Positions 16,407 to 62,976 of a stretch of 64,000 nt of DNA are shown here, piece after piece. Both the position numbers and the translations under genes were made by a program. The DNA comes from Xestospongia muta (lineage: Eukaryota; Porifera; Demospongiae; Haplosclerida; Petrosiidae): positions 32,189,245 through 32,253,244 of the forward strand of contig OY848917.1 in NCBI GenBank assembly GCA_963693285.1. The letters are read 5' to 3'. The notes under the pieces were generated by a model that was not told the DNA's origin, did not search any database, and saw only the letters and a list, made by a program, of their open reading frames with translations. How positions within the stretch are numbered: position 1 is the first letter of the stretch; each line of letters opens with the position of its first letter.

Positions 16407-19400
16407 GTGAGTATATATTTAAAACTACAATTATATTATGAACCTTTCCTTATACAAGATTGTATTTTTGACATGGATAGACAGTGTGTGACATTGTCCT
16501 AACATGGTTTGTTATACATATAAATATATATATATATATTTTCACTTTCATTATTTTGTGGTATTGTTGTATATGTCTTTTCTATAAAATAAAACTAACA
16601 TGTATTAACTGCTGATAAAAATGGCAACTATGAATTTAAATAGCTATTGCTGTGGACATTTCAAATATAGTGTGACTGATAAAGGCTCAAATTATATAAA
16701 GTTTCTGAAAGCAGAGAATCATCTTTGAGCTGAACCATAATTTCCTAAATTCCCTGGTGTTCTAACATGTTAAATATGTATACTATTATTCTTCCATTTA
16801 ATGCCTCAGTACTTATTTAATCACAACATCATTAAAGTAGGCATTTATTTATCTTCAAATTTCTCAACAATTATTTGATACATCACTGACAACACTCACA
16901 ACTAAATAGTAAAATACGATAACATTTCAGAAAATGAAAACTTGTTATGCCAAGCATGCTACTGACCCATACTAGGCATTTATTTCTATCAGGTGTTATT
17001 TACAACCACAATATTTGCACTTGATATTTATCTAATATAGGCATTTATTCAAAGTAGGCAGATAGAAAAGTAGTAACCTAATTTATCTATATATTTGTGG
17101 AATTTAATAAAATGGGATATAGTACTGTGCCACAAACTTGTTACCCTTTAATTCTAATATAAGCAGCTTTCCAATATAGATACACATCTAATCAATTCCA
17201 TTTTTATATGCTCTAAAAGCATGCTTTCTTTGGCTCTGTAACTGGTTTGTTATAAATTAGAACTAAATAGACTGGAATATTAGTGCATGTTTGTATTATG
17301 AATATTGAATTTAGTCCATTCATACTTTGTTTAAACTTGTAATAGAGAGTAATTGCATTTCAAACTTTACAAAGATACATTGGTACTGTAATGAAAAGCA
17401 CAGAGGTTAAGTTAAAGATAACAAAACAACAGATTGGAATCAACGGTTTACACAACATATATAGTTGTATATGTTAGTTAATTTGTGTTGTCTGTATCAC
17501 ACTTAGTTATAAAACAGTTTAAAAATAAAGAGCTCAAACATTGTTATAGCTAATACCACATGAAGCCACTTTGTCTTTATTCTAATCATATAAGTAGTAC
17601 TGCTATAATAAAGAGATCCTCTGGCCTTAAATTATTCTTCCTACTCATTAATATAACTTTGTAGCTTTAAAATTATTGTTAGATGTAATATAAATTACAC
17701 ATTATATCCTGTATTGATATCTATATTAAGTGCAATTAGCCTTGAACAGTAGAAATTAAAAAAAAATAAAAAAAAACAGTAGACAAATATCAATTGTTCT
17801 TGTAACCTACACATTTTTACAACACATGGAAATGTCATTCTAGAGATATCATATTGAAATGAAAAAAAATGGATCATATTATCATAAACAATGTGGTGCT
17901 TTAACTGCTTTAAAAGATGATCATTTTATTATTTGTACATATAATTAATGAAATATAAGAATGGCTTACTGGCTTATTATTTTCTACCTTTATCCAACTA
18001 GGCTATCTACTTTGAAGTCAATAGATGTAATTGTAATAATATTGTCTCATTTATTATCATCTGTCAATTAAGTGTAAAACTAACAGTACTGTAGAAGTTA
18101 ATGAATTCTTTTTCTCTTAGAGTGGAAACACACCACTTCATGATGCTTGTTCTAATGGTTCAGTTGATGCTATCAAGTTACTCATATCATCTGGGCAAGT
18201 GGATCCGATGTCCAAAAATAATGATGAACAAGCACCTATGGAACTTGTTCCTCGAGATCACAAGAATCGTTTTGAAATTTTAAAAACATTTGAGCCATTT
18301 CAGCAAAGTCATGCTGACTTCCCTGTGGAATCCTATGGTAAAGTCTTTATGTGTGGCAACACTACTGCAGGGAAAAGTTCTCTTACTGCTGTCATCATGG
18401 AACGAGCTAAGAAACCAGCTAATCACAAGTTTGATACATCCGAATGTGTCACAGTAGAACCACTAACAGCTGGTATTAATGCACATACCTTCACAAGCCA
18501 CGAAATTGGGAATGTCGTCCTCTACGACCTTGCTGGTCATAGGGAATATTACAGTAGTCATGCTGCTGTCCTAGAAAATCTCATGTTAAGCTCGCCTGCT
18601 GTTTTTTTGATCCTTTTCAAGCTTATTAATGCCATTGAGACGATGAGAAAAGAGTTATACTACTGGTTTAATTTCATTGAAAATGTCAGCAAAGGAATGA
18701 AAAGTTCAAAGCGATCACAAATTGTTCTCATTGGAAGTCGACTTGATGAACTGACTACTAGCTTGGATCCAATATCTGAAGTGGTGGATGAAGTTGTTGA
18801 GAAGGCCGCCTATTCACAAGAATTCTGTGGGTTTATATCAATGGAATGTCATCGTCCTGGAGGTAAAGGAGTCAAAGAGTTTATCGTTACATTGTCAAAG
18901 AGCTGTAAAGCTGTTCTCGATCGATCTGACAAAATCAGTTTTTATTGCCACGTCCAATACTCTTTTTTGCAGCTTCTTAAAAGAGTAGCTATTAGTTTGG
19001 AAGAGCTATGTGCTTTGTTAAGAGAGCGTAATGATCCTTCTCTTCCATCTGAAATGTCAGTGTTACTTGAATTCCTGACCACTTTAAGTGATAAGGGTCT
19101 TATCTTATTCCTTAGAAATGAAAATGGTCAAAGTTGGATAGTTATAAACAGAGCTGCTCTACTATCAGAAATCAATGGTGTCCTCTTTGCCCCAGCAGCA
19201 ATCAAACGTGTTTATCGAGATATGGCTAGTAATACTGGCATTGTACCTCTGTCAGCTCTCAAGGAAGCATTTCCTGATCACAATATTGATATGTTAGTTG
19301 GATTTCTTCAAAGTCTTCAATTTTGCCACATGATTGAATCAAGTGCACTCAATGATCTTGAAACTAACATATCAACATCAGTACCTCTGCCGTTAGATGA

Positions 19401-25135: not shown

Positions 25136-28100
25136 GATCAGTGTATATTTCCGCCATTTCATATTCTGAAAATCGATTTCCGCCATTACGCGCCGAAATC
25201 TTCCTAAGAAATGAAAATTCAAAAAACCAAAAAACCAATATTTTTTCGATTGAGTTAGGTCAGAGCGGTTGACTATTATCAATAAAATAGGACTTTGTCC
25301 TGCTTGTGTTCCCAATTCGTCTCTCTATCTCTGATCTTTGACACTCTGACGTTAATCGCAGTGAGGTTTGACCCGTTCTTGCATTGTTACTCACTCTCAA
25401 GAATTGGTCCTACAGGCTCTAACCCGGTAGGTATTTTGTCTCAAAGTTGACTTTTGTCAGTTTGTCTAATACATTATATATATGGTATAAATTACGTCTC
25501 TACCTGTATACCCTTTCTTTCAAATTTTGTATAGTATACCTCTTCATATTTAAAGTATAAGTATATATATATAATCAGGCAAATCAGATTACTATTGTGC
25601 AATATTATATCTTAACATCAGTTAAATCATGTCGGTGCGATTGATTGATATTGAAGACTTGGTTATACTGAAAATTGAACAAGAACAATGGACTCACAAA
25701 GACTTGTCAGAGTACTTAAAAAAAAGATTTCCAAACATCAAGGGGGCTAGCATACGATCTATTGAGAGGTTTTGCAACTTAAAAAATATTCACAAAACCT
25801 CCAGGCCAACTTATCTTCAGCTAAATAATGCTGTTAGCAGGGCAGTTCATAAGGTGAATTATTTAATCAAGGGATAAGCTTGCAATTGCTTTCTTATATT
25901 ATGCAAAGGTTGGACCTGTCTATGGTCGAAAGACAATAACTGGCTTTTTGGCATCGGAAGGAATGCGTGCTTCTGAGGTCCGTGTAGGAAAAGTTTTAAA
26001 AGATATTACTCCTGTTTATCATCAAGCAAGACGAAAAGACACAGCGAGGAAGTTGAATCCTATTCCATATATAGCTCAATATTTTGGGCAAAAATTACAC
26101 ATCGATCAAAATGAGAAGTTAGTCAGATATGGAGTAACTCACATTTGTTGCGTCGATGGATTTAGTAGGAAAATTGTCGGTTTTGCTAGTATGCCTTTAA
26201 AGAACAACTTGGAGATCTATGAACATGTCTTTAGGTAAGATCACAAGAAAATGCCATATAAGATTGGCAGGATGATTTGGTAAATTTGCCAATTACTTGA
26301 AGACATACATGTAATCATGCATGCATGTATGAAAAGTGATAAATCAATCTTCAATCCACCAAAAAGTACTTACAAAATTTACTTCTAAATAACCTATTAC
26401 TATACAGTAAACTTTCTATATTGAAATACATCAAATGCCTTATAGACATTCAGATGAAAGCATTGCATGCATTAAGTGATATAATGCATGTGATATAGCT
26501 AGTTATAGGACCTTATAGGAATCATCATATCAGGTTTCTTTTTATGTAGACCTCTGCTATTGAATTTTGGTATTTGGGATCAAGTGCGTGTTGATAAGGG
26601 AAAGGAATGGTATCTTTTGTTGTTTATTCAAGAAAAACTCAGCCACATCAGATATGACAAAGGGAAAGCTCCACACTTACAGACACCTTCAACGATGGTA
26701 AGTTGCATGCAATCAAGTAAATTTCTTATAATCTACTCTTAATTGCAGAATCATGTGGTTGAGAGAATGTGGGAAGAATTTAATTCAAGGGTAAATTATC
26801 CCATCAAGCAATGTTTAACAGAAATGGAGAATGACCATGTAATAGATATGGTTAATGACACACATAAATTTTGTGTGTCTTGGGTAACTATTAGAGTTGC
26901 AAATGTTGGGACAACAATTGTTATAAAATCTTGGAATAATCATCGTATTCCGAGTAAGTTTCACAACATGTATCTTAGTTGATTTGTCTTACAGAAAAGG
27001 GTATACCTGACATACTTATGAAGAAAAAGAATCACATGGTTCCTGTTATGCCCACTCTGATTCCAGTAGTCAGTGACGCTGTTCGAGAATATGAGGCTCT
27101 GGGTGGCTCACTAACAAGATCCAGTTCTTTTGGTATTGATCCTTTGGAATCAAGTCCTGTTCTAAAGGAGAGAAGGCAAGAGCTATTTCATTCACAATAT
27201 CCACAGTTTGACCCTGTATTTTACAGCTGTGTTAATGATAAAAGTCATATCTTTCGCAAATGTGTGCTATACTTCATTTACATAACAGAATATCTTTCAC
27301 AATATTAGCATGATGTTTTCTTGCTGTAATTGTCTGTTGAAGTTCAAAGTTCATTAATAAGAACCCGAGTTATTTTACGCAAGCGCAGTTAGTACACGTT
27401 GCCACGTTCCTGCTATCTTCCGATTACATGGTATCAGACTTGATCTCACCTACTTTGATCTTTTTTGACTCATCAAGGCTATCTCACATCGTCTGGGCAG
27501 TATATTGTGAGCCAAAACACATTTCACTCAATAAACTATCCTGGTGTTTCTCTCTAAGTTGACTGTTATTATAATACGTCGTCATCGGTTGGTCTCGATC
27601 GAAAACTGTTCGATTTGGATTAAAACGTGTCTGTAAACTCTCTTGTGAGTTAATCTAACAAGCTTAAACTTAGTCTCAGGCAGGATCAAGTTGTAATATT
27701 ATAGTCAGTTTATCTAATTGTTAGCTAGTGTTAGCCCCCCATAAGGGACCATTGACCTAATTTTGGCATTTTGGTATAACCAACAGACTAGCGACTGTAT
27801 CTCTCTCCAGTTGAGTTTTGACAGTCCAATTGTCACAAGACTTAGCCAATCTAGTTTGCCCTGCTTTTGTGGTGTAATGTAATTTATTGTTTCTCGATAT
27901 AGTCAACTCACTGGTACTCTTTCTCTCCCTGTCAGTTTGTCTAGGAACACCCTAGTTTGACCAGTGCTGTCTTTCTCTCTGGAGTTGTATGCCATTGATC
28001 CACCTTGCTTTGGTGTACATTCTCTATCATTTTGTTGTTTGTCCACTCCAAGAATGAGTCGTATCCCAACCCCTCCTCAATCACAGACTGTCACATTTGT

Positions 28101-28457
28101 CCGTGACCAACAACGCTTTGAAATAGACTTGTCAACTCGACAAATTTCCTCAAGAATGTTGTTGAGAATGTTTAATGTGAGTGCTAATTGTTTTATTTAT
28201 TATTCAGTGTTCGAATTGTTGTAGGTGGATCCTGCAAATGTGTGGTTAAGAGAAGATTTTAGTGCACAGGCTTTCCTACCTGATGACGAAGGGATCTTCC
28301 ACTTTCATAATCTTCAGTTCTCACCATTTATCACGATGTTTGTCGAGGGCTCTGATGCTTCTGGAAGTGCTGGTTCCTCTTCAACTCCAACAGTTCATCC
28401 TAATAGCTCTGTACAAGATGGCCATCCTCGTTTTCGGTGAGTATTAACAGTGAAGTT
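25136..28457 (+). repeat. Left inverted arm (~3.3 kb)
   Basis: The inverse complement of about 30033-33347. It is almost identical; differences seen are one base near 27486, a 7-nt length difference near 27730, and a cluster of changes in the innermost 100 bp. Similarity fades just after the donor at 28437. Confidence 0.9.
25629..27308 (+). CDS. DDE integrase/transposase, left-arm copy
   Basis: Five exons with matching phases: 25629-25853, 25909-26234, 26550-26697, 26749-26953 and 26995-27308 (TAG). They encode 405 residues with no internal stop. Exons 1-2 form a DNA-binding part (WTHKDLSEYLKKRF; then GPVYGRKTITGFL, like the HTH_21 segment of IS3 OrfB). The catalytic core follows: first Asp in KLHIDQNEK, second in VRVDKGKEW, and Glu in NHVVERMWEE, about 38 residues after the second Asp. 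KSWNNHRIP and KGIPDILM belong to the conserved C-terminal part of this integrase family of invertebrates and fish. It would cut and join the element ends in the nucleus. The start was chosen as the first ATG of the open exon. The downstream neighbour on the same strand is the RING-like gene. Confidence 0.85.
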
Positions 28458-28899
28458 GTTCTTTACTGTTCTTAGAAGATGTTAATAGTCAGATTATCTG
28501 ATATTGTTATAATTGTGTGATCAATTAATTGTAATTTAACTGTCCTATAATTATTACATCATGTCTACAATATGTAAATAGTAGGCCACAAATTACTGTT
28601 TTGTATTCATATCTTCTTTTAGGCAAGCTTACATAACACTTCCTGTAGGCCTACTGCATGTGATGTATGCATGTTTGCAGTGCAAGTTGTGTCATACTAT
28701 TCCAATAAAACCACCTGTGATGATGGCTGATTGTTGTAAAATAATAATTGGGTGTGGAAATTGTGTGGACAGATTGTATGTCTCAAGGCATGTTGATGTA
28801 CCTTGCCTGATGTGCAAATCAAGTTGCCCACATTCAAATTATTTGCGTATCAATGGTATTGATGAACTTTTAAATGTACTCTCAGACATAAAAAGTTAA
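28054..28899 (+). CDS. RING-like zinc-finger protein, left gene
   Basis: Exons 28054-28176, 28225-28436 and 28623-28899 (TAA) splice in phase to 203 residues. Residues 1-111 (MSRIPTPPQSQTV; VDPANVWLREDF; FIEMF-like acidic-Ser tail ending GHPRFR) come from the inverted arm. The last exon is unique to the centre and encodes a RING-like finger: CKLC, DCCKIIIGCGNC, CLMC, plus a short C-terminal helix (GIDELLNVL). No His is seen at the usual RING position; the CC...C..C arrangement matches the right-hand gene and related finger proteins I recall from fish and cnidarians. Ubiquitin-ligase activity is inferred from the fold only. It lacks the middle domain that the right gene has. Confidence 0.7.
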
Positions 28900-29109
28900 T
28901 TTTTAATGTTATCATTTTTTGTCAACCCTGTACATGTAAGACTTTTTCAACAAATTCTTTAATTTGAGAAATGTTAATTATAATGAATACTTTCACTTCT
29001 AAACAATAATGAATGTTCTAACCCTTAAGAGAGTTAGGGTTTGTACTTGAGATAAATGGTGATCTGGTAAGTAATAATTATGAGAAAGTTGTCAATTCAT
29101 TGAGTAGTT
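28900..29109. other. Gap between the two convergent RING-like genes
   Basis: About 210 bp between the stop codons of the + and - strand genes, likely holding both 3' ends. No canonical AATAAA pair stands out. Confidence 0.5.
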
Positions 29110-30436
29110 TTACTCATCAAAGAGGCATTGGACTTGTGTAACAAAATCATCTAGTCCATGTAATCGACTTGTCTGAGCATATCCACGGTCAACATTACAA
29201 ATAGGGCAAGGTTTCTTCATAAGTTCTTCATAACTCCCACTTATTCCATACCAAGTATTCACACACTGTTCACATCCTATTATATTCTTGCAGCATCCTG
29301 CCATTACTAAGGGAGGTTTCATGGGTGTCTCAAAGCATATCTTGCAATTAAATGTGCTCTGGAAAACAGTTTTAAGAGCTATAGGAATCTTTAAATCTTT
29401 TGTGACAGTAAATAAAAGGTTGAGTTTGTCTCTTATTTCAGAGAGATATGTGTTCACAGGTTCATCATCATCCTCAGTTTCAACTCATTTTCGCTTATTA
29501 CTGACAGTGGGAGTTGTAAAATCTGCATAAAATTTCCTAGCATTCTGTTTCCAAAAGTCTAAACCTTTTCAAATAATAAGAAAAAAATAGTAATTAGAGT
29601 TGCAGCACATTCTGTTAAGCAAAATACAAATTGGCATTTGGAAAACAAATAGGCATATTGCAACTGGTGGCCACTATAATGGTATATAAGAAGCAAAGTA
29701 ACCAAAGGCCAGCCCAGTTACACCACAAGTCCAACCTCAATGCAAACAATGTTATATTCAAATTCACATTAATTACCTCTAGTAGCACTGCAATCTGCCA
29801 CTTCGTGGCCATCTGCTGATACAAGTGAATAAGTTGATCCCCATATTTCTTTTATTTGGCTATTGACATAGTCCACATTTGCTTTTTCTGAAGTTATTTC
29901 AATAAAAGCTTCAACACTCATTTCAAACTCAGGTTTTCTCCCTACTTTTTTCATTCTGGCCCTAGTGATTTTCAGTAGATGTCTGTTTTTGCTTCCAACT
30001 ACAGATCTAATTATGTACCAATAACATTAAATAATTTCACTGTTAACACTCACCGAAAACGAGGATGGCCATCTAGTACAGAGCTATTAGGACGAACTGT
30101 TGGAGTTGAAGAGGAACCAGAACTTCCGGAAGCATCAGAGCCCTCGACAAACATCGTGATAAATGGTGAGAACTGAAGATTATGAAAGTGGAAGATCCCT
30201 TCGTCATCAGGTAGGAAAGCCTGTGCACTAAAATCTTCTCTTAACCACACATTTGCAGGATCCACCTACAACAATTCGAACACTGAATAATAAATAAAAC
30301 AATTAGCACTCACATTAAACATTCTCAACAACATTCTTGAAGAAATTTGTCGAGTTGACAAGTCTATTTCAAAGCGTTGTTGGTCACGGACAAATGTGAC
30401 AGTCTGTGATTGAGGAGGGGTTGGGATACGACTCAT
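29110..30436 (-). CDS. RING-like zinc-finger protein, right gene, with an in-frame TGA
   Basis: Exons 30436-30314, 30265-30054, 29961-29777 and 29564-29110 (TAA) join in phase to 325 codons including stop. The first two exons mirror the left gene. Exon 3 adds a small domain (RKPEFEMSVEAFIEIT ... ADGHEVADCSATR) that I have seen upstream of similar fingers. Exon 4 starts LDFWKQNARKFYADF and ends with the finger: CKICFETPMKPPLVMAGCC, GCEQCVNTWY, CPICNVDRGYA and LHGLDDF. A TGA at 29487-29485, after NKRK, interrupts exon 4 before the finger; the frame is otherwise open. It may be a recent nonsense mutation, an unrecognised small intron or a sequence error. Confidence 0.65.
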
Positions 30437-33347
30437 TCTTGGAGTGGACAAACAACAAAATGATAGAGAATGTACACCAAAGCAAGGTGGATCAATGGCA
30501 TACAACTCCAGAGAGAAAGACAGCACTGGTCAAACTAGGGTGTTCCTAGACAAACTGACAGGGAGAGAAAGAGTACCAGTGAGTTGACTATATCGAGAAA
30601 CAATAAATTACATTACACCACAAAAGCAGGGCAAACTAGATTGGCTAAGTCTTGTGACAATTGGACTGTCAAAACTCAACTGGAGAGAGATACAGTCGCT
30701 AGTCTGTTGGTTATACCAAAATGCCAAAATTAGGTCAATGGTCCCTTATGGGGGGCTGCTAACAATTAGATAAACTGACTATAATATTACAACTTGATCC
30801 TGCCTGAGACTAAGTTTAAGCTTGTTAGATTAACTCACAAGAGAGTTTACAGACACGTTTTAATCCAAATCGAACAGTTTTCGATCGAGACCAACCGATG
30901 ACGACGTATTATAATAACAGTCAACTTAGAGAGAAACACCAGGATAGTTTATTGAGTGAAATGTGTTTTGGCTCACAATATACTGCCCAGACGATATGAG
31001 ATAGCCTTGATGAGTCAAAAAAGATCAAAGTAGGTGAGATCAAGTCTGATACCATGTAATCGGAAGATAGCAGGAACGTGGCAACGTGTACTAACTGCGC
31101 TTGCGTAAAATAACTCGGGTTCTTATTAATGAACTTTGAACTTCAACAGACAATTACAGCAAGAAAACATCATGCTAATATTGTGAAAGATATTCTGTTA
31201 TGTAAATGAAGTATAGCACACATTTGCGAAAGATATGACTTTTATCATTAACACAGCTGTAAAATACAGGGTCAAACTGTGGATATTGTGAATGAAATAG
31301 CTCTTGCCTTCTCTCCTTTAGAACAGGACTTGATTCCAAAGGATCAATACCAAAAGAACTGGATCTTGTTAGTGAGCCACCCAGAGCCTCATATTCTCGA
31401 ACAGCGTCACTGACTACTGGAATCAGAGTGGGCATAACAGGAACCATGTGATTCTTTTTCTTCATAAGTATGTCAGGTATACCCTTTTCTGTAAGACAAA
31501 TCAACTAAGATACATGTTGTGAAACTTACTCGGAATACGATGATTATTCCAAGATTTTATAACAATTGTTGTCCCAACATTTGCAACTCTAATAGTTACC
31601 CAAGACACACAAAATTTATGTGTGTCATTAACCATATCTATTACATGGTCATTCTCCATTTCTGTTAAACATTGCTTGATGGGATAATTTACCCTTGAAT
31701 TAAATTCTTCCCACATTCTCTCAACCACATGATTCTGCAATTAAGAGTAGATTATAAGAAATTTACTTGATTGCATGCAACTTACCATCGTTGAAGGTGT
31801 CTGTAAGTGTGGAGCTTTCCCTTTGTCATATCTGATGTGGCTGAGTTTTTCTTGAATAAACAACAAAAGATACCATTCCTTTCCCTTATCAACACGCACT
31901 TGATCCCAAATACCAAAATTCAATAGCAGAGGTCTACATAAAAAGAAACCTGATATGATGATTCCTATAAGGTCCTATAACTAGCTATATCACATGCATT
32001 ATATCACTTAATGCATGCAATGCTTTCATCTGAATGTCTATAAGGCATTTGATGTATTTCAATATAGAAAGTTTACTGTATAGTAATAGGTTATTTAGAA
32101 GTAAATTTTGTAAGTACTTTTTGGTGGATTGAAGATTGATTTATCACTTTTCATACATGCATGCATGATTACATGTATGTCTTCAAGTAATTGGCAAATT
32201 TACCAAATCATCCTGCCAATCTTATATGGCATTTTCTTGTGATCTTACCTAAAGACATGTTCATAGATCTCCAAGTTGTTCTTTAAAGGCATACTAGCAA
32301 AACCGACAATTTTCCTACTAAATCCATCGACGCAACAAATGTGAGTTACTCCATATCTGACTAACTTCTCATTTTGATCGATGTGTAATTTTTGCCCAAA
32401 ATATTGAGCTATATATGGAATAGGATTCAACTTCCTCGCTGTGTCTTTTCGTCTTGCTTGATGATAAACAGGAGTAATATCTTTTAAAACTTTTCCTACA
32501 CGGACCTCAGAAGCACGCATTCCTTCCGATGCCAAAAAGCCAGTTATTGTCTTTCGACCATAGACAGGTCCAACCTTTGCATAATATAAGAAAGCAATTG
32601 CAAGCTTATCCCTTGATTAAATAATTCACCTTATGAACTGCCCTGCTAACAGCATTATTTAGCTGAAGATAAGTTGGCCTGGAGGTTTTGTGAATATTTT
32701 TTAAGTTGCAAAACCTCTCAATAGATCGTATGCTAGCCCCCTTGATGTTTGGAAATCTTTTTTTTAAGTACTCTGACAAGTCTTTGTGAGTCCATTGTTC
32801 TTGTTCAATTTTCAGTATAACCAAGTCTTCAATATCAATCAATCGCACCGACATGATTTAACTGATGTTAAGATATAATATTGCACAATAGTAATCTGAT
32901 TTGCCTGATTATATATATATACTTATACTTTAAATATGAAGAGGTATACTATACAAAATTTGAAAGAAAGGGTATACAGGTAGAGACGTAATTTATACCA
33001 TATATATAATGTATTAGACAAACTGACAAAAGTCAACTTTGAGACAAAATACCTACCGGGTTAGAGCCTGTAGGACCAATTCTTGAGAGTGAGTAACAAT
33101 GCAAGAACGGGTCAAACCTCACTGCGATTAACGTCAAAGTGTCAAAGATCAGAGATAGAGAGACGAATTGGGAACACAAGCAGGACAAAGTCCTATTTTA
33201 TTGATAATAGTCAACCGCTCTGACCTAACTCAATCGAAAAAATATTGGTTTTTTGGTTTTTTGAATTTTCATTTCTTAGGAAGATTTCGGCGCGTAATGG
33301 CGGAAATCGATTTTCAGAATATGAAATGGCGGAAATATACACTGATC
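30033..33347 (-). repeat. Right inverted arm (~3.3 kb)
   Basis: Mirror of 25136-28457. Both integrase copies have identical translated exons. Confidence 0.9.
31175..32854 (-). CDS. DDE integrase/transposase, right-arm copy
   Basis: Mirror gene: exons 32854-32630, 32574-32249, 31933-31786, 31734-31530 and 31488-31175. All exon translations equal the left-arm copy, and the D, D, E residues and splice sites are intact. One element thus encodes two identical transposase genes reading inward from its two ends. A read-mapping check is needed to exclude an assembly-made palindrome, but the distinct centre and the 7-nt difference argue that the structure is real. Confidence 0.85.
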
Positions 33348-50240: not shown

Positions 50241-51618
50241 TATGAGAGGTAATTAGTGCCAAAATAACCACATTAAAAAAGGCTAGTGAAATCTTACAGA
50301 GGGTAGTCAAGTTTTAAATAAGGTGGTGGTTTTTTAAAATGGGGTAGTGGATTTTTAAAAATAGGTCAGTGGTTTTTAATGTAGTAGCATCTAAAAAGGG
50401 TAGTCCTTTTGTGCAAATGATAGTCTATTTTGAAGTAGGGTAGTGTCTTTAGAAGTAAGATTGTGTCTTTCAATGTGATAACATTCAATAAGGTTGTGTT
50501 TTTTAAGTTGTATAGTATCTATCAAAATGACGGTCTATTTAAAAAAGAGTAGTGTTTTACAGATACAATACTGAGCTTGAGTTCTTTTACTGAATGATAA
50601 CATTCAAATAGAATATATAGTCTATTATAAATATAGGGTAGTGTTTTAGAAATCAGTATAGTGTTTTCAAAGTGATAAGATTATAATTTTTAAATTGTGT
50701 AAAATTATGGTCTACTTTAAATAAGACAAATCTTTTAGAAATAGGATAAAGTCTTTGGAGCAAAGTAAAGACTGTTACAAGATTGTATGGTTGATAAATA
50801 CAGGGGTTGGGTTGAGGGGGCTGGCTCCAGATATTAGGGAATTTGAATGTCTTCAGAGTGCAATGTAAATCTTCCAAGAGCAGTAGTATTTATCTCTAGT
50901 TTAACACAGGTACATGTACATGTATATTTGTTATTTCAAGACAACAATATTGCTCAATGTACCTAATTGATGATCACATTATTGTTATTCAAATGTCAGA
51001 AATGCTGTTGTCCCAACTCTACACAGAAGATATAGTGTTTCCATTGAGTCAGAGTAAGCATAAAAAGACAATGACTTAAATTAACTAGCAAGGTGAGTTC
51101 AAGACTGACAATTCCCCTTGCTAAAAACCTCCAAATCTATTTTCTCAAGGGTTTGGAGTGCTCCCAAAGTCTAACAATGAAGTATAAATTGAATACAGAA
51201 TGTCATCACCATGTTCGTGTTATCGTGGCAATCTGAAGTTGATTAGACTTATAATACCACTAGTATATACAACCTTATCGACTCCTCATTATTCGTATGC
51301 ATGAGCTTCATTGTTCAATTATCATGCTTCATTATCTGTCTTCGGCCTGCTTTATCTCTGTCTCCTCTCTCTCTCTCTCATGACATATTATTATATATTA
51401 AACTTTAACATTTATTTATCATATTTCCTTAGTTTCATATCAATCTAACAACTCTTATTTAATTGAAATTATTAAAGCAGTCTGTGCATGCACAATCACC
51501 AGGTAGTCATTTGGCTATCACAAATATTAACTGTTATTACACTATTGTTTAATAAAAATGGGTGTTGTGTACTCGATAGCAAAACATCCAAACGTGGTAT
51601 CGAAGCATAGAGTACCCA
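50241..51618 (+). repeat. Left terminal inverted repeat
   Basis: Pairs with 61561-62976. Shared landmarks include GGGTAGTCAAGTTTTAAATA near the tip, GGTTGGGTTGAGGGGGCTGG near 50815, and GAAGCATAGAGTACCC at the inner end. Confidence 0.85.
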
Positions 51619-51800
51619 CCCAGGGTTTGGAGTGCTGCAAAGAATCCCAAAGTAGAACCTGTCTTGAACAAACAATGAAGTATAAATTGAATACAGAATG
51701 TTATCACCACATTCTCTTTATTGCAGCAATTTGAATTTGATTATACTAACAATACCACCAGAGTCTACTACATTATCAGCTCCTCATTATCTCTACAGCC
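51145..51800. repeat. Direct repeat at the inner edge of the left terminal repeat
   Basis: 51145-51300 and about 51620-51790 share GGGTTTGGAGTGCT, AACAATGAAGTATAAATTGAATACAG and a downstream CTCCTCATTAT. Only the outer copy has a counterpart in the right terminal repeat. Confidence 0.7.
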
Positions 51801-51818
51801 CACTATGTCTCTGTTTCT

Positions 51819-51823
<5 letters not shown>

Positions 51824-51888
<65 letters not shown>

Positions 51889-51890
51889 CT
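51824..51890. repeat. (CT)n microsatellite
   Basis: About 33 CT units. Leu/Ser-repeat frames over it are artefacts. Confidence 0.95.
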
Positions 51891-54800
51891 ATTTACACAT
51901 TCAACAATTTTCCTTCACTGTGTCTCTCTTTTATTATGTACAATTTTCCTTTTTATTGAACTCTGTGCTGACTTTGAATATAACATTGTTATAATATAAT
52001 TATAAAGTTTAACATGTGTTTATCAATCTAATTACTATTTCTTTAGTTTCATATAGATCAATCTAACAACTACTTTATTTTACAATAATAGTTGAAATCA
52101 TCATTACAAAGATGACAAAGGGATTTATTGATGTAGCATGTAGTCATTTGATATGGATAGATATTCATACATGGCTGCCTTCCTTTGCCTACAATCTTGG
52201 ACCAACTAGCAAAGTGAGTTTAAGTCAGACTCTCCTTTAGGAATAATTCCAAATAAATGAGCACTTTTTCTCTCTCTGTCTCTTTGTGCCTCTCTTTGTC
52301 TCTTTGTGTCTCTAACTTAATTTCCATTTGTTTGCACATCCAAAAATTTGCCAGTACTATTGCACAGAAACGTATTGCATACACTTTTAATGATAATCTA
52401 TGTAAAGTATCATTGAAGTTGATGTGGTATGTTTCTGTGTAATAGTACTGGCAATTTTTTATATAAAAGACAGCTGGTCCACATGAATCTTTGGAAGTAA
52501 CATTATCCATCATTCTCATCTTGTCCATCTTTTGTCTGACTAGCAATCTATCTATATTGATATTGATCTGCACATATATTATCTATTTATCTGTCTGCCC
52601 ATCCACTCACTTCTTTGATTTCCATCCTTTTATCCGTATGTCCATTTATCACCTCATCCACTGAATCATCCATATATTCACTGTAATCCAGTCTATCTAT
52701 CTGCTAATATCTCAGCCTCCATTCAACCATGATTCTCTTTATTTGTCTGTCAAGTGTCTTTCCATTTAATCTGTCCAAGTGTCCTTTCTGTCTGCTGACC
52801 TCTTAGTCAATTCATTCAATCCATACACCTGTTTGTCCATCTTTTATCTATCTGTCTATCTGTCTATTCATCAATCTAACTCTTCAATCAACTGCCGCCT
52901 CAATGTTATGACCCCACATTTAAACTAAATTTTTGATTTTACAGAATTATTTTTGATGAATAACAGTGTACACACATAAGATAAGATAGATTTGGTACTA
53001 TAATTCCACGTTTAGAGAATGTTGTTTTATGTAGAATTGTCAATGTTGGAATGGTCCAGATTGTCCCATTAAAATGTATTTATTAACAGAAAACACTAGT
53101 CATATCACATCTGACTAACACTGACTGACCATACTGACCATAGTAAGTAAAATTACAGACATTACTAATAATCATTCAGACAGGCAGGTAGATTGGCAGT
53201 CATAGAGTCAGTTTAGATAAACAATCTCATAGTCAGTCAAAAAGAGTCAGATTGTAATTCAAATAATCAGTCAGAGTGTCAGTTAGATAGATAGTTAACC
53301 AGATAGTCAGTCATATAATCTGTCAGAAGGTCAATCAGATAGTCAAGCAGACATTCATGCAATCAGGCACTAAATCAGATATTCAGTCAAATAATCGATA
53401 TAAAAGGGTTAGACTAAGAGTCAGTTAGATAGTCAGTTGGTTAGTATGGTTGGTCAGTTTTGGTCAATATTGATTAATGTTGGTTGGTATGATCAGTTGA
53501 CTTGATCAGTCAAGGTTGGTCAGTATGGTCAGTGTTGGCCAGTATAGTCAGTAGAATTGCTCACAATGGACAGTCAATTAGTATGGTCAGTATGGTTAGA
53601 ATGGTCAGTTGGTCAGTGTTGATCAGCATGGTCAGTCATGCGCATCAGTATGGTCAATAGAGTTGCCCAGTTAGTATGGTCTGAATGGTCAATCAGTCAG
53701 TGTTTGTTCAAAATGAGTATGGTAAGTCAGTTTTGGTATGGTTGGTTATTATTGTATGATAAGTATGGTCAATATGGTCAGTTGGTCAGTATGATCTGCC
53801 AATGCTCTTCAGTATTGTCAGTGTTTGGTTGGTATGGTCTTGTAAGTTAGTATATGGTCAGTATGATCATTTCGTCTGTATGGTTGGTCACTTTTAGTCA
53901 GTATGATCAGTAGTATTGCTTACAATGGACAGTCAGTAATTATGGTTGGTCAGTCTTTTGTCAGTTTGTCAGCAAGGTTGGTTCAGTCAGTATGCTCAAT
54001 ATGCATGGTCAAAAGGTCAGTGTTGGTCAGTATGATTAGTAGCATTGCTTACTATGATTTATCAGTTAGTGCAGTCAGTATGGGTGGTCAAACATTTTAA
54101 TATCGATGTTTTTTTTAATTGTTTTTAATCATTTCATCAAAGTATCTAATCTTATGTCCGACAATGTAGGTTATGTAATTGTAGTTATGGTCTCTTCATG
54201 CAGACCGTGAAGTCAAGCCATCGGTTATACCACTTGTTTTATACATACCTCACACTGGTTTTATTTCTATCAGTGTTATAGAATACATTGTGTTAATATG
54301 TTTTAAATCATATTATAATAATATCATTATCATTCCTCACCAAGAGCAAGTATGACAAGAATAATTGTTAAAGGTGAAAAGCAGGTTTCAGTGTGGATCA
54401 TGTCAAAGAAACTGTTCAGTGCAAAATCGATATGTATAGGGTGCAAAGAGACCACGATGAGTTAAGACTTGAAACAATACTAAGGTCAATTGATAACCCA
54501 AACTATTATTGATACTATTGGTGGAAAGACATCAAGTTGCTTGACAGTCAAAAGGTAAGTTGTATGCTGAAAGATAAGCTGAAAACTATTATAATTCCAT
54601 AATGTTATCATTATTACTATTAGTGTTATTGTTATTATTATTATTAATGTTATTATTATTATTTTGTTGTTGTTGTCTCAGCTTGAGCTTGATTCTGCCT
54701 CTTTTGGTCTGCATAGTGCAATGTATAGATTTTTGATGGAGTTTCAGTGCGTACTAATCTAGTATTAAAGCTGTTTGTCATATAGTGTATCTTGTACTTC

Positions 54801-54975
54801 ACATATATAATACTATCTCTACAATTGATTTAGCAATTTATGTCAGATAATTACATTTTTATTAATGTTAGTTATTCTTTTCATTGGCGGGAAATTACCG
54901 TAAAACTAGACTTAAGCAAGACTTGGAGAGAAGAGATTGTTATTACAGTCAGAGAGAGACGAAGAGTACAGTGTC
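51891..54975. other. Element interior upstream of the HECT gene: low-complexity and minisatellite sequence
   Basis: No gene seen. 52560-52880 is rich in TCTATCTGTC-type words, 53150-54090 is a degenerate GTCAGTATGGTCAG minisatellite, and 54600-54670 holds an (ATT)n-like tract. The promoter of the HECT gene should lie in the last few hundred bases. Confidence 0.55.
53150..54090. repeat. Degenerate GGTCAGTATGGTCAG minisatellite
   Basis: Dozens of variants of (G)GTCAGTATG/GTCAGTTGG/GTCAGTGTTG. The first third is richer in ATAGTCAGTCA. Open frames over it are repeat artefacts. Confidence 0.85.
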
Positions 54976-57900
54976 ATGGCAGATCAGACGAGGACAGGAG
55001 ACCTTAGGCAACAAGTGTTGTCAATATATAATAGTTTGCTGAACGCTGTCGATGCGCTGGAGAGTCGACCTAGCGGTAGAGGGATCTCTAGATCTAGTGT
55101 ACCCAGTTGTTGCGAAGCTAGTAACAGTGGGATATCAAGATTGTCAAGTGCTCTCGAACCTTCGCAGACTTCTTCCAGTTCCGAAATAAAACACTTATTC
55201 CATTATAATACCAGCTTTGGGAAACGTAGAAATTCGAAGGGAAGTGAGAGCCTAAGCAAAAAGAAAAAACTAAAAACTTGGTCACATACATTCGTTTGTT
55301 TAAGTTCCCCCACTCAAAATGAACCACCTGACAGTAAGACTAGAGCTAAGTTACAGCTAGCAAGTTTAGGAGAAAAGAGGTTGTCATTTTTTTACGATGG
55401 GGGCCCAGAAGAGCTTCATGAAGAACTCATGCAACAATATCCTAAACTGTCTTCTGGAGGTGGTTATGAGTTGCTTCGTGCCAGTGGCAATCGTAAGCTT
55501 GAAATTATTCCTGTGCCACAGGAAGGATGCTCAGTCAATTTTCTGAGGAGTGTTGTGCACAGTGCCAAAGTGTATGTTCGTCCAATACAAAGAGATTTAG
55601 ACATGACCCCTTCTCCAAGTAATGTAAGTTTTATATGATGTTAAAAAAAAACAACAAATGTTTGGTTTTGTTTTATTAGCAATGGTCACCTGTATTACGA
55701 CAAGAAAAATGTCTAGAATGTGGCAATCTAGTTCCCCTTCACATGTTGAGAGAGCACCTTTTAGCATGCAAGTCAACTGTTACTGGTGAGTGCATGTTTA
55801 CACAAACACATATAATATAATTCACATGTAGAATGGGAGGGTCTGGTTTATATTAAGCATATAGCAGGTTTAAATTTTTGGGAGTTCTTTGCTTTTTTGT
55901 GAAGAGGAATAGTGGTAGTTTAATACAACGATATGAGTCTGATCTAATGAGAAGCTATATCAGCCTTACACTCATGGACAATGGTGGATGGTTTGTATGC
56001 ATTTCATAACAGATTATATCAGATATGTCATGGTTCATTAATTGGTCAATATACATTATGCAAACCTACTAACTTGTGTAAAAAAATATCCTCAGGCCTA
56101 TTGTTAATGAGGTTTTGTATAAGACATGTAGACTTCACATCATGTTACACACACATACACATGTGTATGTCATATCATAGTACATCTAATATTCTATATA
56201 TATTTCATATAATTATATAGATGAAGTTCAATCAGCTTATGAGTCTGATGATAAAGAGATGGTCAGTGACAATTCAGTAGGCATTGAAGCAGAAGACATG
56301 GTAATGAGCTTATAATTGCTATGTGTCAGCTACCTCATGTGTTGGCCTTTAGAGTGAAGACGATGATTCTATGCTCCAGTATGCAATCCAGGTAAGTCGT
56401 CAAGAGGCAAGTCTTACAGACCCAAGGTTAGTAGCAGGTTATGATGTATATTATTATTAATCAACTTTTATCTAGCTATTTTCGATCTTGTGAAATTAGC
56501 AGTATTGACGAAGTTATCACTATGCTTAGACAAAATTTAATTGACAAATGCTTCACAATGGTAATTAGTAGAACCAATGTTCTTGAAGAATTTTTTCGGA
56601 GGACTGATAAAAAGTCATTTGACCCATCAAAGAAGCTAAGAGTAAGTATGTTCTTTGATTTCATTGACTTTCCATTACATCCATGTAGGTGGAGTTTGTT
56701 GGTGAAGATGGGATTGATACAGGTGGTCTGACTAGGGAACTGTTTACACTTCTTGTTAAGGCTATTTCTCCTAAATATGTTCAAAATGGTTATCTTCTTC
56801 ATGATTCCATTGCTCTTCGAGTAAGCATATACTAAGAATAATTCAAGTAATTAAATTTGTTATGCAGGACCGGGTGTATTACAAATTGGGACAACTTGCA
56901 TCTATGTGTTTAGTGCAAGGAGGTGCTGGATTTAACATTCTCTCTTTGGCTGTATTTGACTATATATGTGGTAAAGACATCAAATATCATAATCCCTTTT
57001 GAAGACGTAATGCATCTTCAAGCAAAAGAACTGATTAATGAAGTAAGTAGATATGTTCTTGTAGGATATGCATTGCATATTAATATTATTTGGTTTAGTT
57101 GTCTAAATATGTATTAGTTTCTTGACAGCCATTGACTTATAACTAGAACACATGTGGATCTAAGCACATCATATATACCTTGACATGAGACTCATATAAT
57201 AGCAATGTGCCACTATAGCTAATATGAAGATACTATTTTTGTGAGGTTTCATGTTAAATCTAGCATGTTTATTGCAGTAGACATGCTGTTACTTTAAACA
57301 TGTAAATTGTGAGCTTGTTATATTACATGATGTCATGATATTATTTTTCATTTAATTTCAGATACAATGTGTGTCAACATTAGATGAACTAAAGAATGTA
57401 TACTCAATACACTTTGACACACTAAGTGACTGTGGTATAACAAAGCCAACCAGTTTATTAACACTAGAAGACAAACGGGTAGTAGTCCAATCTATTGCAC
57501 AGTATCATTGCTTATTAAGACATAAGGCAGAGCTCGACCAATTCAGTGATGGTCTGGCAACATTAGGTACCAGAGATGCCATAAGAAAGTACCCTGTTAT
57601 ATTGTCGAAATTTTTCACCAACTGTAACATCACACTTACAGCAGGTAAGAAAATTCATATGCACAATAAATCTGTATAGACAGCAAGTGTTTGTATGTAT
57701 TCTAAGAGATCGTTACGTTGTTATGATGACTGTTATTATACTATGCAGACTTGATAAAGAATCTCTTTAAGAGGGTCATCTATTCTGAGGTTGGCTGCAA
57801 TGAGAGGACGAGAGAAGAATGTACTTACATCTATTTCATAGATTACTTGGAAGAATGTGAAGAAGGTATACAAGATTTACACTTTTTGTTTGCTGTGTGT

Positions 57901-59159
57901 ATACAAATATTTATTGTGTAATGTATGTATATAGTCTTGTATATGAGTGTCTTATCTACATTCTCTTGCATGGTTGTAGCTGAATCCATTAAAGAACTCA
58001 AAGATATCCCTCATGAAAAGAGTAAGTTTGGGATATTTTTGTGTGAAAGGAGGGGTGATAAACCACATAAATAGGTCTAATGACTGCCATACATAAGTGT
58101 GAAGAAGCCTTTGTGGTTTTGAAGGGACCACATTTTGCATTTTTAAGGTGGTTTTTAGTGACAATTATAGTGGATTGGTTTAGCACAGGGTTAACAAGCT
58201 TATAATTGAAACTATTGTAAAATGACTATTTGATGGTACTGTTGTTACTGCTAGCAACAAAACTTGCTATGTTTCAAAACTGAAAAGTTAAACTGAGAGA
58301 AGCCACCCAAATATGAAGACAATAGCTTTAATTAGTCACGCCCAATGCAAAGTGCTTGCAGTAGGAGTAATCATATTCATTGGGTGCTATGTACATTAGC
58401 AGTTATTTTATGTGTATGTTAATTTCATTTGTCATCTCCAAAAGTCACTTACAAGGATACAAAAAACAATGACAGTGGACATATATATATACATGCATGC
58501 ATGAGGCTAAAAAAAATCTTAGAACCATCTGACATGCAGACAAATTATGCATAGAAGTACTAAACTCACTGTTGCCACTTTGTTATTTTTAGAATGAAGT
58601 TTTGTCAAGAGGTTAGAAGTAATTGATAAGGTGTCATTTCTGCACATAACGCGTTTTTAGCGCTACATTCAATATTGTCCAGAAACGATTGTACTTTTAT
58701 CTGGCAAATGGTTGATTAAGGCACTACGTAAATTTGTTGATCATCTGTTACTAAAAAGAGTCAAAGAGAGCTTCATTACTGTATTGTCAAAATAACTAAA
58801 ATCCCAATTTATGTATTGGTAGTACTCATTGATAGACCTGCCTTAATGAAATTATTTAATGTATTTGTTATTGCAATTACTGGGTTGATGTAGCCGGCAC
58901 TTTACCGTGACTGTTTCATTTTATAGAGATAAAGGTGACCTTGCATTCAATTCTCAACTTTTTTTCTGGAGCAGAAGAAATTCCTCCCATGGGATTTCCA
59001 TGTGATCCTGTACTGTGTTTTACTGCCAGTGATCTTTACCCAACAGCGTCCACATGTGCCATTGAGCTGACGTTACCAACCCAATACAGCAATTATGAGT
59101 CTTTTAAAGATGCAATGGATGTGGCACTCACATGTCACGGTGGTTTTGGAAAGAGTTAA
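54976..59159 (+). CDS. Transposon-borne HECT E3 ubiquitin-ligase-like protein (UBZ-UIM-HECT), one frameshift
   Basis: Eleven exons: 54976-55623, 55680-55785, 56221-56300, 56353-56426, 56476-56641, 56689-56820, 56868-57042, 57362-57644, 57749-57865, 57980-58021 and 58927-59159. They give 684 residues if one extra T in the TTTT run at 56997-57000 is discounted; as written, exon 7 shifts frame and meets TGA. Exon 1 ends with a domain common in such proteins (YPKLSSGGGYELLR ... KVYVRPIQRDL). Residues 227-246 fit a Rad18-type UBZ4 finger exactly (C-x2-C-x11-H-x3-C). EDDDSMLQYAIQVSRQ near 280-298 is a ubiquitin-interacting motif. The HECT domain spans about 303-684: VEFVGEDGIDTGGLTREL, then YPTASTC with catalytic Cys 651, ending GFGKS. 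It resembles G2E3-like HECT proteins. It would bind ubiquitin chains and transfer ubiquitin. Confidence 0.75.
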
Positions 59160-59359
59160 CTGTTCTGTTACAATATGTACGTGCTACATTATCTCTTAAA
59201 CTATGCACTCTCAGTATTTCTCATCATCAGTATTCATAATCGGTTACTTCATTTGTCACTTATCAATATATACATAATGATTTGGTGATCAATTTTGATT
59301 TGTGATATTCAATGTCTGGTGTAAAAATTAACAGATTTGGAAAGGGTATATTCTAATTA

Positions 59360-61473
59360 TTAACATAATCTGTTCTTCACAAAACCAACTGTTGCTGAAT
59401 ACAAGTCAATGCCATAGTTGGTTGAGGGAGAAAGTACTTGAACTGCTTCCTGTAGCTCAGAATAATCATTTTCATTCAGAGGTCATTCTATAGCAGGAAC
59501 AATAATTTCATTAGGAGTACTCAGATCATCTTCTGTTGATAACGGACCATCCCAGTCAACTCCATATAGTTGTGCCTCCTCCTGTTGAAAGAAACAAGAT
59601 TAGTCAAGCGCATATAGACATTTGTTAACACAAAATATAATAGATAATGTACTGTTATTGTGCTCTATGGGTTATATGGCATGAGAGGTGAGGTCAAGAG
59701 ACTGATACAGCATGAGGCAAAGCTGAGTACTGTATCAGTCTTGAGACCATAACCCAAGTAACCTGTATAACACTAACAGTACATTATCTGGTTTACCATT
59801 ACTTGAACTGTACTTTCATTTCTTGTCAGTTTTACTGTTTGAATTCATTTGTTGCTATGTGTTACTAAGCACAAGCCAATTAATTTGAGGAAGCAACTAA
59901 AGAGAATTGGAAAGTGTGAAAAGGTAAGGAAACCCGAGCAGGAAAGGAAGATATGGTCAACCTAGATAGCCAGCATGAAACATTCCTTAGAAAACAATCA
60001 ATAATCTCAATGAAAATTAATGTTAGTATCATATTGAACGTGCAATATCAGTCATATTGAACGCTTTCTGCTTTATGGAAATATAGAATGGGCGGTGTCT
60101 TTAATCCATCCATGCAAGTAACAATATATATATATATATATATATATAAACAAAATACCTCTGTTAGCTCATCAGGTGGAGGTTGTCTACATAGTCCACT
60201 AATCCAAAGCTGCATTGGACTAAGATATCCTTCAGATGATAGAGGATGGTTGTTCCAAGCATCCTGAAAGAGACGTAATGCAGAGTTTATTCGTCGTATA
60301 TATACATAATGGAGACAAAAGAGATGTACTTCATCATCAATATCCAATATGTCCTGATCCTCCATATAATGAAAGAGTTGGTAGAAAAGAATAGTACATT
60401 GCAGAAATACATCACGCCAGAGTCTCTCAATTCTTTGGTTGTGAACACTGCGTCCAGTAATGAAGCTACCTCGACCTGGACCTCTGAGAGGATGTTGAAG
60501 CATGAATGCTGCAACACGTACATTTTCACCACCTCTATCTGAACGTACTCTACTTGGCAGTCCAGTGATTCTTACTTGGTCAACAAATAGTTGCAGGACA
60601 GTTTCTGCTCGGTTATTGTCAGCGCAATGTAGGTATATTATTCTACGACTGAATCCATCAATACATCCATGAATGACAAACCTCCATCTATAAATTAAAT
60701 AGAAAACGATTATAGACCCAATTATGATATAAATGTGATAATTGTAACTGATTAAGTAGATAATGACTTCACCTGATCAATTTATGATTGCTATCTATGT
60801 GATATAGAGACCTTGGTGCTGCCACTCTGTATTCTCGCCTATGAAGACATCTCAATTGACGCATCATTGTTCCTTCAGGACAGATTCTTCTTTGGGAGTC
60901 TCTGATTCTCCACTTTTGTATTCTAAACCCTTGAGATAATAGATGCCCATTCATTTGACGGTATCCGCACATGGGGAATTGATCATGAATGCTTTTTATC
61001 AGTCTGTCCAAGTCGTTGTCTGTTACTTCTGAATACTGGGAACGAATAGAAAGACCATACTGGGACAGTCTTCTGTGAAGAGTTCTCACAGATACCCCAA
61101 GCATATCTGACATTTGGGGGACAGTGAAGTGATTTTCAACGAGATACAACAATTGCTGTCTTGGAATAACAAATCTAGGCCGGCCAATGAGTCCATTGTA
61201 CTCAACTGGGGGTGAAGATTGCTCTGTATTTTCTGAAGCACGATCTCTGACGTTCTTAAGTGTGTCAAGAGCAAATCTAATAAAGTTGAGTCCTGCCTGT
61301 TCATTCAAACTTAGTACTCTTATACTTTCTGCAACAATAAATTCTCGATAAACAAGCTCCAAACAGAGTAAAGATGATTCTAAAACATCAAAGCATATGT
61401 TTCTTCCGTCTGAGAGAGCTTCAAAGTTGCTAGTGATCCGCCTAAGAGCATTTATACTCCACTCAGAAGACAT
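59360..61473 (-). CDS. IS3-like DDE integrase/transposase of the 12.7-kb element
   Basis: Exons 61473-60773, 60687-60159 and 59581 onward join in phase. Reading stops at TGA 59485-59483 (442 residues), but the same frame continues in protein-like sequence ([19 protein letters not shown]) to TAA at 59362-59360. This suggests a recent nonsense change or a tolerated truncation. Residues near 100-190 hold a helix-turn-helix pair: [19 protein letters not shown] and an IS3 OrfB-like [15 protein letters not shown]. Catalytic residues: Asp in YHIDSNHK, Asp in VRSDRGGEN, and Glu in [11 protein letters not shown], 36 residues after the second Asp. CIDGFSRRI and [10 protein letters not shown] are family signatures shared with the 25-33 kb integrase. 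The start is the first ATG, 90 bp inside the right terminal repeat. Confidence 0.8.
59642..59789. mobile_element. 148-bp fold-back MITE in the integrase intron
   Basis: The 16-bp ends AGATAATGTACTGTTA and TAACAGTACATTATCT are perfect inverse complements. An inner hairpin (GAGACTGATACAG ... CTGTATCAGTCTTGAG) makes it a near-complete fold-back. It sits in intron 2 of the integrase gene (60158-59582). Confidence 0.8.
60124..60147. repeat. (TA)n microsatellite
   Basis: About 12 TA units in the second intron of the integrase gene, next to the exon 2 donor. Confidence 0.9.
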
Positions 61474-61560
61474 AGTTCACTTTAGCCCCGCACCAAGTAA
61501 AGTAGAATACCTGGGTACGAGGCTGAATTCACTTATACTGAACCCGGAAATCCGTTAATG

Positions 61561-62976
61561 CTGGGTACTCTATGCTTCGATACTGGTATTGAGTATACAA
61601 CACCCATTTTTAATTAACAATAGTGTAATAACAGTTAATATTTGTGACAGCCAAATGACTACCTGGTGATTGCGCATGCACAGACTGCTTTAATAATTAT
61701 AATTAAATAAGAGTAGTTAGATTGATATGATTAAACTAAGGAAATATGATAAATAAATGTTAAAGTTTAATATATAATAATATGTCATGAGAGAGAGAGA
61801 GAGGAGACAGAGATAAAGCAGGCCGAAGACAGATAATGAAGCATGATAATTGAACAATGAAGCTCATGCATACAGATAATGAGGAGTCGATAAGGTTGTA
61901 TATACTAGTGGTATTATAAGTCTGATCAACTTCAGATTGCCACGATAACACGGACATGGTGATGACATTCTGTATTCAATTTATACTTTATTTTTCAAGA
62001 CTTTGAGAGGACTCCAACTCTTGACAAATAGATTTAAAGGTTTTTAGCAAGGGGAGTCATCAGTCTTGAACTCACCTTGCTAGTTAATTTAAGTCATTGT
62101 CTTTTTATGCTTATTCTGACTCAATGGAAATATTCTTCTGTGTAGAGTTTGCACAAATACAACATTTCTGACATTTGAGGAACAATGATGTAATCGTCAA
62201 TTAGGTACATTGAACAATATTGTTGTCTTGAAATAACAAATATACATGTACATGTACCTGTGTTAAACTAGAGATAAACACTACTGCTCTTGGAACATTT
62301 ACATTTCACTCTGAAGACATTCAAATTCCCTAATATCTGGAGCCAGCCCCCTCAACCCAACCCCTGTATTTATCAACCATACAATCTTGTAACAGTCTTT
62401 ACTTTGCTCCAAAGACTTTATCCTATTTCTAAAAGATATCTGTCCTATTTAAAGTAGACCATCATTTTACACAATTAAAAAATTATAATCTTATCACTTT
62501 GAAAACACTATACTGATTTCTAAAAATTAAAAGAACTCAAGCTCAGTATTGTATCTGTAAAAAACCTTACTCTTTTTTAAATAGACCATCAGTTTACCAG
62601 CCAAAAAATACTTTACATTGATAGATACTATACAACTTAAAAAAACACAAACGTATTGAATATTATCACACCAGCCAAAAAATACTTTACATTGATAGAT
62701 ACTATACAACTTAAAAAAACAACCGTATTGAATATTATCACATTAAAAGACACAATCTTACTTCTTAAGACACTACCCTACTTCAAAATAGACTATCTTT
62801 TGCACAAAAGGACTACCCTTTTTAAATGCTACTACATTGAAAACCACTACCCTATTTTTAAAAATCCACTACCCCATTTTTAAAAACTACCACCATATTT
62901 AAAACTTGACTACCCTCTGTAAGATTTCACTAGCCTCTCTTTAATGTGGTTATTTTGGCACTAATCACCTCTCATA
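61561..62976 (-). repeat. Right terminal inverted repeat
   Basis: Inverse of 50241-51618. It contains an extra tandem duplication of 74 bp (62597-62670 and 62671-62742) that the left copy lacks. The integrase start codon lies about 90 bp inside this repeat's inner end. Confidence 0.85.

Follow-up and report, generated by a model that had tools for sequence, protein, structure and literature searches.

Elements of the IS3EU/GingerRoot group are described, in the part of the source available, as having TA..TA termini, usually 6-bp target duplications, and an IS3/IS481-like DDE transposase (PMC10045372). In fungal IS3EU families, according to the available excerpt, a TET/JBP dioxygenase gene sits between the transposase gene and an alpha-kinase gene (PMC12730594), and Ginger1 elements are portrayed, again in partial text, as animal integrase-type DNA transposons with OTU or Ulp1 domains, for which the authors suggest an involvement of the ubiquitin pathway in transposition (PMC2836005). 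Here, a stretch of 64,000 nucleotides of the sponge Xestospongia muta (contig OY848917.1, positions 32,189,245 to 32,253,244, forward strand; hereafter the window) was analysed with respect to an inverted-repeat element at window positions 50241-62976, in which a gene of HECT ubiquitin-ligase type lies beside an integrase-like transposase gene. The element is very probably a cut-and-paste transposon of IS3EU type, with the HECT E3 ligase gene as a regular member of its gene complement.

The element measures 12,736 bp and is bounded by the inverted ends TATGAGAGG..CCTCTCATA. Its left terminal inverted repeat (50241..51618, plus strand) starts with the 20 bases TATGAGAGGTAATTAGTGCC, and the right one (61562..62976, minus strand) has, in inward reading, the terminus TATGAGAGGTGATTAGTGCC. 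Gapped alignment of the two arms gave 81% identity over 1,488 columns with 183 gap positions, and seven ungapped blocks spread along the arms were 88-97% identical each. An earlier, sequence-only reading of the window had placed the borders at exactly these coordinates, and the 1.4-kb inverted terminal repeats it described were likewise present. The genome-wide search for the 20-base end that it proposed returned 17 matches vs none in a reversed control; only the best candidates were scored in this search, so that every genome-wide total given here is a lower bound. Fourteen of these matches were the borders of seven full-length elements of 11.0-13.0 kb in the 158-Mb genome (family 1), and the remaining three were partial or relic ends. 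Inverted repeats without the genes, part of what the same reading named as speaking against it, were encountered as short relics only. One of the three partial or relic ends lies within a 0.4-kb inverted pair (C2:2984252-2984678), possibly a non-autonomous derivative. TATG..CATA termini were found in all seven family-1 copies, and perfect 6-bp target duplications, distinct in sequence, at four of them; at the window copy, one copy on C2, and one on C8, a target duplication was absent. Two family-1 elements at C2:17552946-17580309 share one orientation and are separated by 1.46 kb.

The transposase gene lies on the minus strand and consists of three exons, of which the first (60773..61473) encodes the HTH region and the first catalytic Asp (HID), the second (60159..60687) the remainder of the DDE core with the second Asp and the Glu, and the third (59483..59581) the C-terminal tail YGVDWDGP... 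Exon 2 matched PF24764 in Pfam (E=4.4e-72), rve and HTH matches were obtained as well, and no zinc-finger family appeared in the Pfam listing for the transposase up to E=1. The catalytic residues D227, D284, and E321 were invariant in nine of nine aligned transposase sequences, giving a DD36E arrangement. The frame was open across all three exons in six of the seven family-1 copies; the tail is longer in the copies outside the window because the window's stop codon is absent there. A homologue search yielded 4,225 proteins (E<=0.001). Those with a named source in the best 120 include proteins of sponges (Ephydatia, Amphimedon, Corticium), cnidarians, hemichordates, a sea urchin, a priapulid, and fishes; the closest named ones are sponge proteins, which points to a sponge as the probable host.

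The HECT gene runs on the plus strand, convergent with the transposase gene, and comprises eleven exons with GT..AG junctions. Exon 1 (54976..55623) contains an N-terminal domain (N-domain, about 55273-55605), which is probably ubiquitin-like as judged from a structure model and fold comparison. It is followed by a C2HC zinc motif (CLECG..HLLAC) in exon 2 (55680..55785), an acidic linker in exon 3 (56221..56300), and a UIM (EDDDSMLQYAIQVSRQE) in exon 4 (56353..56426). The HECT region begins about exon 5 (56476..56641) and continues with the N-lobe in exons 6 (56689..56820), 7 (56868..57042), and 8 (57362..57644), then exons 9 (57749..57865) and 10 (57980..58021), and the C-lobe in exon 11 (58927..59159), where the catalytic Cys of YPTASTC is encoded at 59055-59057. 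Exon 11 of the window by itself matched PF00632 (E=2.9e-9), as did the trimmed 586-aa protein of copy C8a (E=1.2e-11), and the catalytic Cys is present in family 1 as well as in the two further families described below. By profile, the best solved chains for the HECT protein were those of AREL1. By domain and catalytic Cys the gene product is thus HECT-like and falls into the class of HECT E3 ligases, its ligase activity being predicted.

Much of the sequence-only reading of these two genes held: the layout of an 11-exon HECT gene convergent with the integrase gene was right, the D, D, and E of the integrase and the HECT Cys were recovered, the label "IS3-like" fits IS3EU, and the UIM was found in the copy C8a protein, with E=0.0012 and 19 bits, under the cut-off of 21. 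The family-2 protein used holds the second half of the UIM exon only, and no single open frame crosses that exon in the copy read. The HECT gene of the window is not full, as had been claimed, since, compared with the five other copies in which exon 7 is retained, 2 bp are missing from it near position 56978, which disrupts the frame. The proposed UBZ4 received no Pfam call (best C2HC model E=0.29), and a pattern C-x2-C-x11-H-x3-C was invariant in the three HECT proteins compared. G2E3, to which the gene had been likened, has N-terminal PHD/RING-type domains. No PHD or RING family was listed by Pfam for the three trimmed HECT proteins, for P0121 or P0122, or for the open reading frame of window exon 1, and the N-domain model looks ubiquitin-like; a G2E3 identity was hence rejected on domain content. 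In the accessible part of Marin 2010, the table has a 1 for G2E3 under human and a 0 under each of the six others (PMC2837046).

Scanning the genome for the transposase family, the HECT family, and the HECT proteins revealed two further families with the same pairing. A family-2 element (C4:6186126-6202322, about 16.2 kb) ends in TATGGAA..TTCCATA with the target duplication GTAGGG, and has inner inverted arms of 2.7 kb (97.6% identity) that each hold most of a HECT copy, with a single transposase gene between them; one of its two HECT copies seems to lack the last residues. At ten of twelve family-2 loci HECT N-domains flank the integrase on both sides, at the other two on one side. A family-3 element (C8:3515939-3522305, 6,367 bp) has arms of 227 bp at 99.6%, ends TATGGGG..CCCCATA, and the target duplication TGATTT, and its HECT and transposase genes share one strand. 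Ends and duplications were read in these two elements. The region C1:3.58-3.78M holds six family-3 integrase hits within 200 kb, with spacings of about 27 kb between several of them, a pattern suggestive of a tandem segmental array. With TA..TA termini in seven of seven family-1 copies and in the family-2 and family-3 elements read, 6-bp duplications at four of seven, one of one, and one of one, respectively, and an IS3-like DDE transposase (PF24764, DD36E) without an HHCC finger, the element fits the IS3EU superfamily by ends, duplication length, and transposase. Polinton/Maverick elements carry genes for a protein-primed DNA polymerase B and capsid proteins; no such genes were found among the eight window open reading frames in a general Pfam scan, a dedicated scan not having been made.

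The alternative that survives best concerns how the three families came by the gene, namely by independent HECT acquisition in several IS3EU lineages or by exchange between elements in the genome instead of descent from one ancestral element. Between families, the transposases share 41-47% identity, and in an integrase tree of 39 of the 120 listed homologues, several deeper forks of which are weak, families 2 and 3 group together as sisters (99/93), with family 1 apart in a mainly sponge clade. The HECT identities disagree with this grouping (C-lobe: 50% for families 1 and 2, 42% for 2 and 3, 36% for 1 and 3; N-domain: 41% for 1 and 3, 39% for 2 and 3, 35% for 1 and 2), and the layouts differ by family (convergent genes, HECT in both arms, genes on the same strand), both of which favour separate acquisition or exchange. 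Against this, the domain order of HECT is the same in all three families and intron positions correspond at the junctions compared, pointing to one origin of the HECT gene, and the HECT identities are low and similar across families, so that the split must be old. Separate acquisition or exchange is therefore a serious contender, though we lean away from it.

Linkage of the two genes holds across the genome. Counting integrase hits of >=100 bits as loci (35 of 110 hits), a HECT N-domain was present within 8 kb at 31 of 35 integrase loci vs 0.19 expected, and 41 of 53 HECT N-domain loci had an integrase of >=100 bits within 8 kb, leaving four integrases and twelve HECT loci unlinked. These counts replace those of a first pass (46 N-domain loci, and 30 linked loci out of 34 merged integrase loci) after further loci were added. 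As a control, 23 hits picked by hand from the weaker integrase rows were assessed in the same way; two of them had a HECT locus within 8 kb, each next to a family-2 element. Together with the seven copies, the 6-bp duplications, and the three families, this gives good support, within this genome, to the earlier proposal that HECT genes are mobilised by an integrase-bearing inverted-repeat transposon.

As for the mechanism, the DD36E transposase, going by its family, would bind the TATG ends and excise the element, which would then be pasted into a target cut at a 6-bp stagger. The HECT protein, which combines a probably ubiquitin-like domain with a zinc motif and a UIM, might work in trans as an accessory ligase of the transposon; most likely it would ubiquitinate a host factor of silencing or repair, or else the transposase, and so help transposition. 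This accessory-ligase step is the least certain part of the explanation and is put forward tentatively, as something we would sooner doubt than assert. The state of the copies bears on it. The HECT frame was open throughout in one of seven family-1 copies and broken in the other six. Apart from the 2-bp loss in the window, the defects are the absence of exons 3-10 in one copy, a 133-bp loss that takes out the catalytic Cys in two (joined in one of them by a 1-bp insertion), a stop codon within exon 7 in another, and several frameshifts in the last. The deletion removing the Cys is common to two copies at different sites, so that HECT loss in cis does not seem to block movement. Such movement is compatible with an accessory protein provided in trans or with a conditional benefit; it is also compatible with a gene that was dispensable in recent moves. 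For selection estimates, codons with gaps or stops were excluded. In family 2, the ratio of nonsynonymous to synonymous substitution rates (dN/dS) was 0.39-0.44 for HECT and 0.25-0.33 for the transposase, and in family 1 the ratio of nonsynonymous to synonymous differences (pN/pS) was 0.65 for HECT (pooled) and 0.14 for the transposase. The family-2 HECT copies are under purifying selection; the constraint on HECT is real but weaker than that on the transposase, and copies die freely.

It is this decay and weaker constraint, as well as the suspected segmental duplication at C1:3.58-3.78M, that could speak for a host HECT gene caught by chance between repeats or duplicated segmentally, i.e., for passenger DNA. 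Distinct 6-bp target duplications at four copies, carriage of the gene by three families with different ends, and the constraint on HECT in family 2 argue against it, as does the fact that the N-domain matches listed all belong to the three families, with no separate host gene among them. A passenger origin is thus improbable, and a single chance capture is already largely refuted. Least probable of all is that HECT serves the host as domesticated copies and is merely spread by the transposon. The twelve unlinked N-domain loci might suggest this, five of them with the N-domain open (three at C1:33.43M, the others at C2:15783061 and C4:2921536); these five, however, are recent derivatives at 93-98% identity to family 2 or 3, and of the remaining seven, one is a short fragment while stop codons interrupt the N-domain of the other six. 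A transposon with HECT in its own gene set thus remains the preferred explanation.

Two other features of the window were recorded. At 25136-33347 lies a second inverted-repeat element (8.2 kb), whose arms measure about 3.3 kb, are 99-100% identical, and each contain integrase fragments (weak PF24764 matches). In its centre, an open reading frame (29113-29484, minus strand) gave a RING-finger match that was weak and under the cut-off (E=0.002). Near-equal integrase hits, paired at a spacing of about 4.9 kb, occur seven times, the window's pair included, and look like copies; two of them have a family-2 HECT locus within 8 kb. Additionally, an open frame of 701 aa at 18121-20226 with ankyrin and Roc-type GTPase matches is likely a host gene.

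Relatives beyond this genome were sought by an IMG/VR scan, which gave 33 pattern matches and no confirmed one, and by two HECT protein searches in which part of the candidates was scored. The latter returned P0121 and P0122 as well as P0123, an ordinary HECTD2-like protein (15% of the query matched); they scored the candidates sharing most words, were probably swamped by low-complexity words, and are no evidence of absence in other animals. It is conceivable, though rather unlikely on present evidence, that transposase and HECT were already paired before the deep IS3EU lineages found today in sponges, cnidarians, hemichordates, and fishes diverged; a transposon-encoded ubiquitin ligase would then be a feature of animals in general and the source of many of their lineage-specific HECT genes. 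The element offers a testable source for the multiplication of HECT genes in animals, and calls for caution in that annotated HECT genes of such type may be transposon genes; in the earlier reading, such elements were put forward as a possible explanation of HECT gene expansion in some fish and invertebrates.

Compared with known systems, the element shares with animal HECT ligases (G2E3, AREL1/KIAA0317, and others) the HECT domain with a C-terminal Cys, and differs from them in the N-domain, C2HC, and UIM of its protein, PHD or RING not having been found. Termini, duplication length, and transposase type are common to it and to IS3EU/GingerRoot, the available text on which is without HECT or ubiquitin (PMC10045372); in addition, one family here has a cargo copy in both arms. 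Like the fungal TET/JBP families, as far as the excerpt describes them (PMC12730594), it has a standing accessory enzyme gene, with another enzyme (a predicted ubiquitin ligase) and another host (an animal). IS3EU cargo genes and the ubiquitin-pathway proteases of Ginger1 were already known; no HECT ligase carried by a DNA transposon appeared in the open-access literature searched, to whose scope Repbase does not belong. The pairing is a concrete system in which to ask how transposons exploit the host ubiquitin pathway. With Ginger1, in the portion of the source at hand (PMC2836005), it has in common an integrase-type animal transposon and a ubiquitin/SUMO-pathway activity; there, a tag-removing protease domain lies within the transposase, whereas here a separate gene encodes a predicted tag-attaching ligase, and if this is true, the HECT-carrying element, found as three divergent families, would be the writing counterpart of the transposons with ubiquitin/SUMO-removing proteases.
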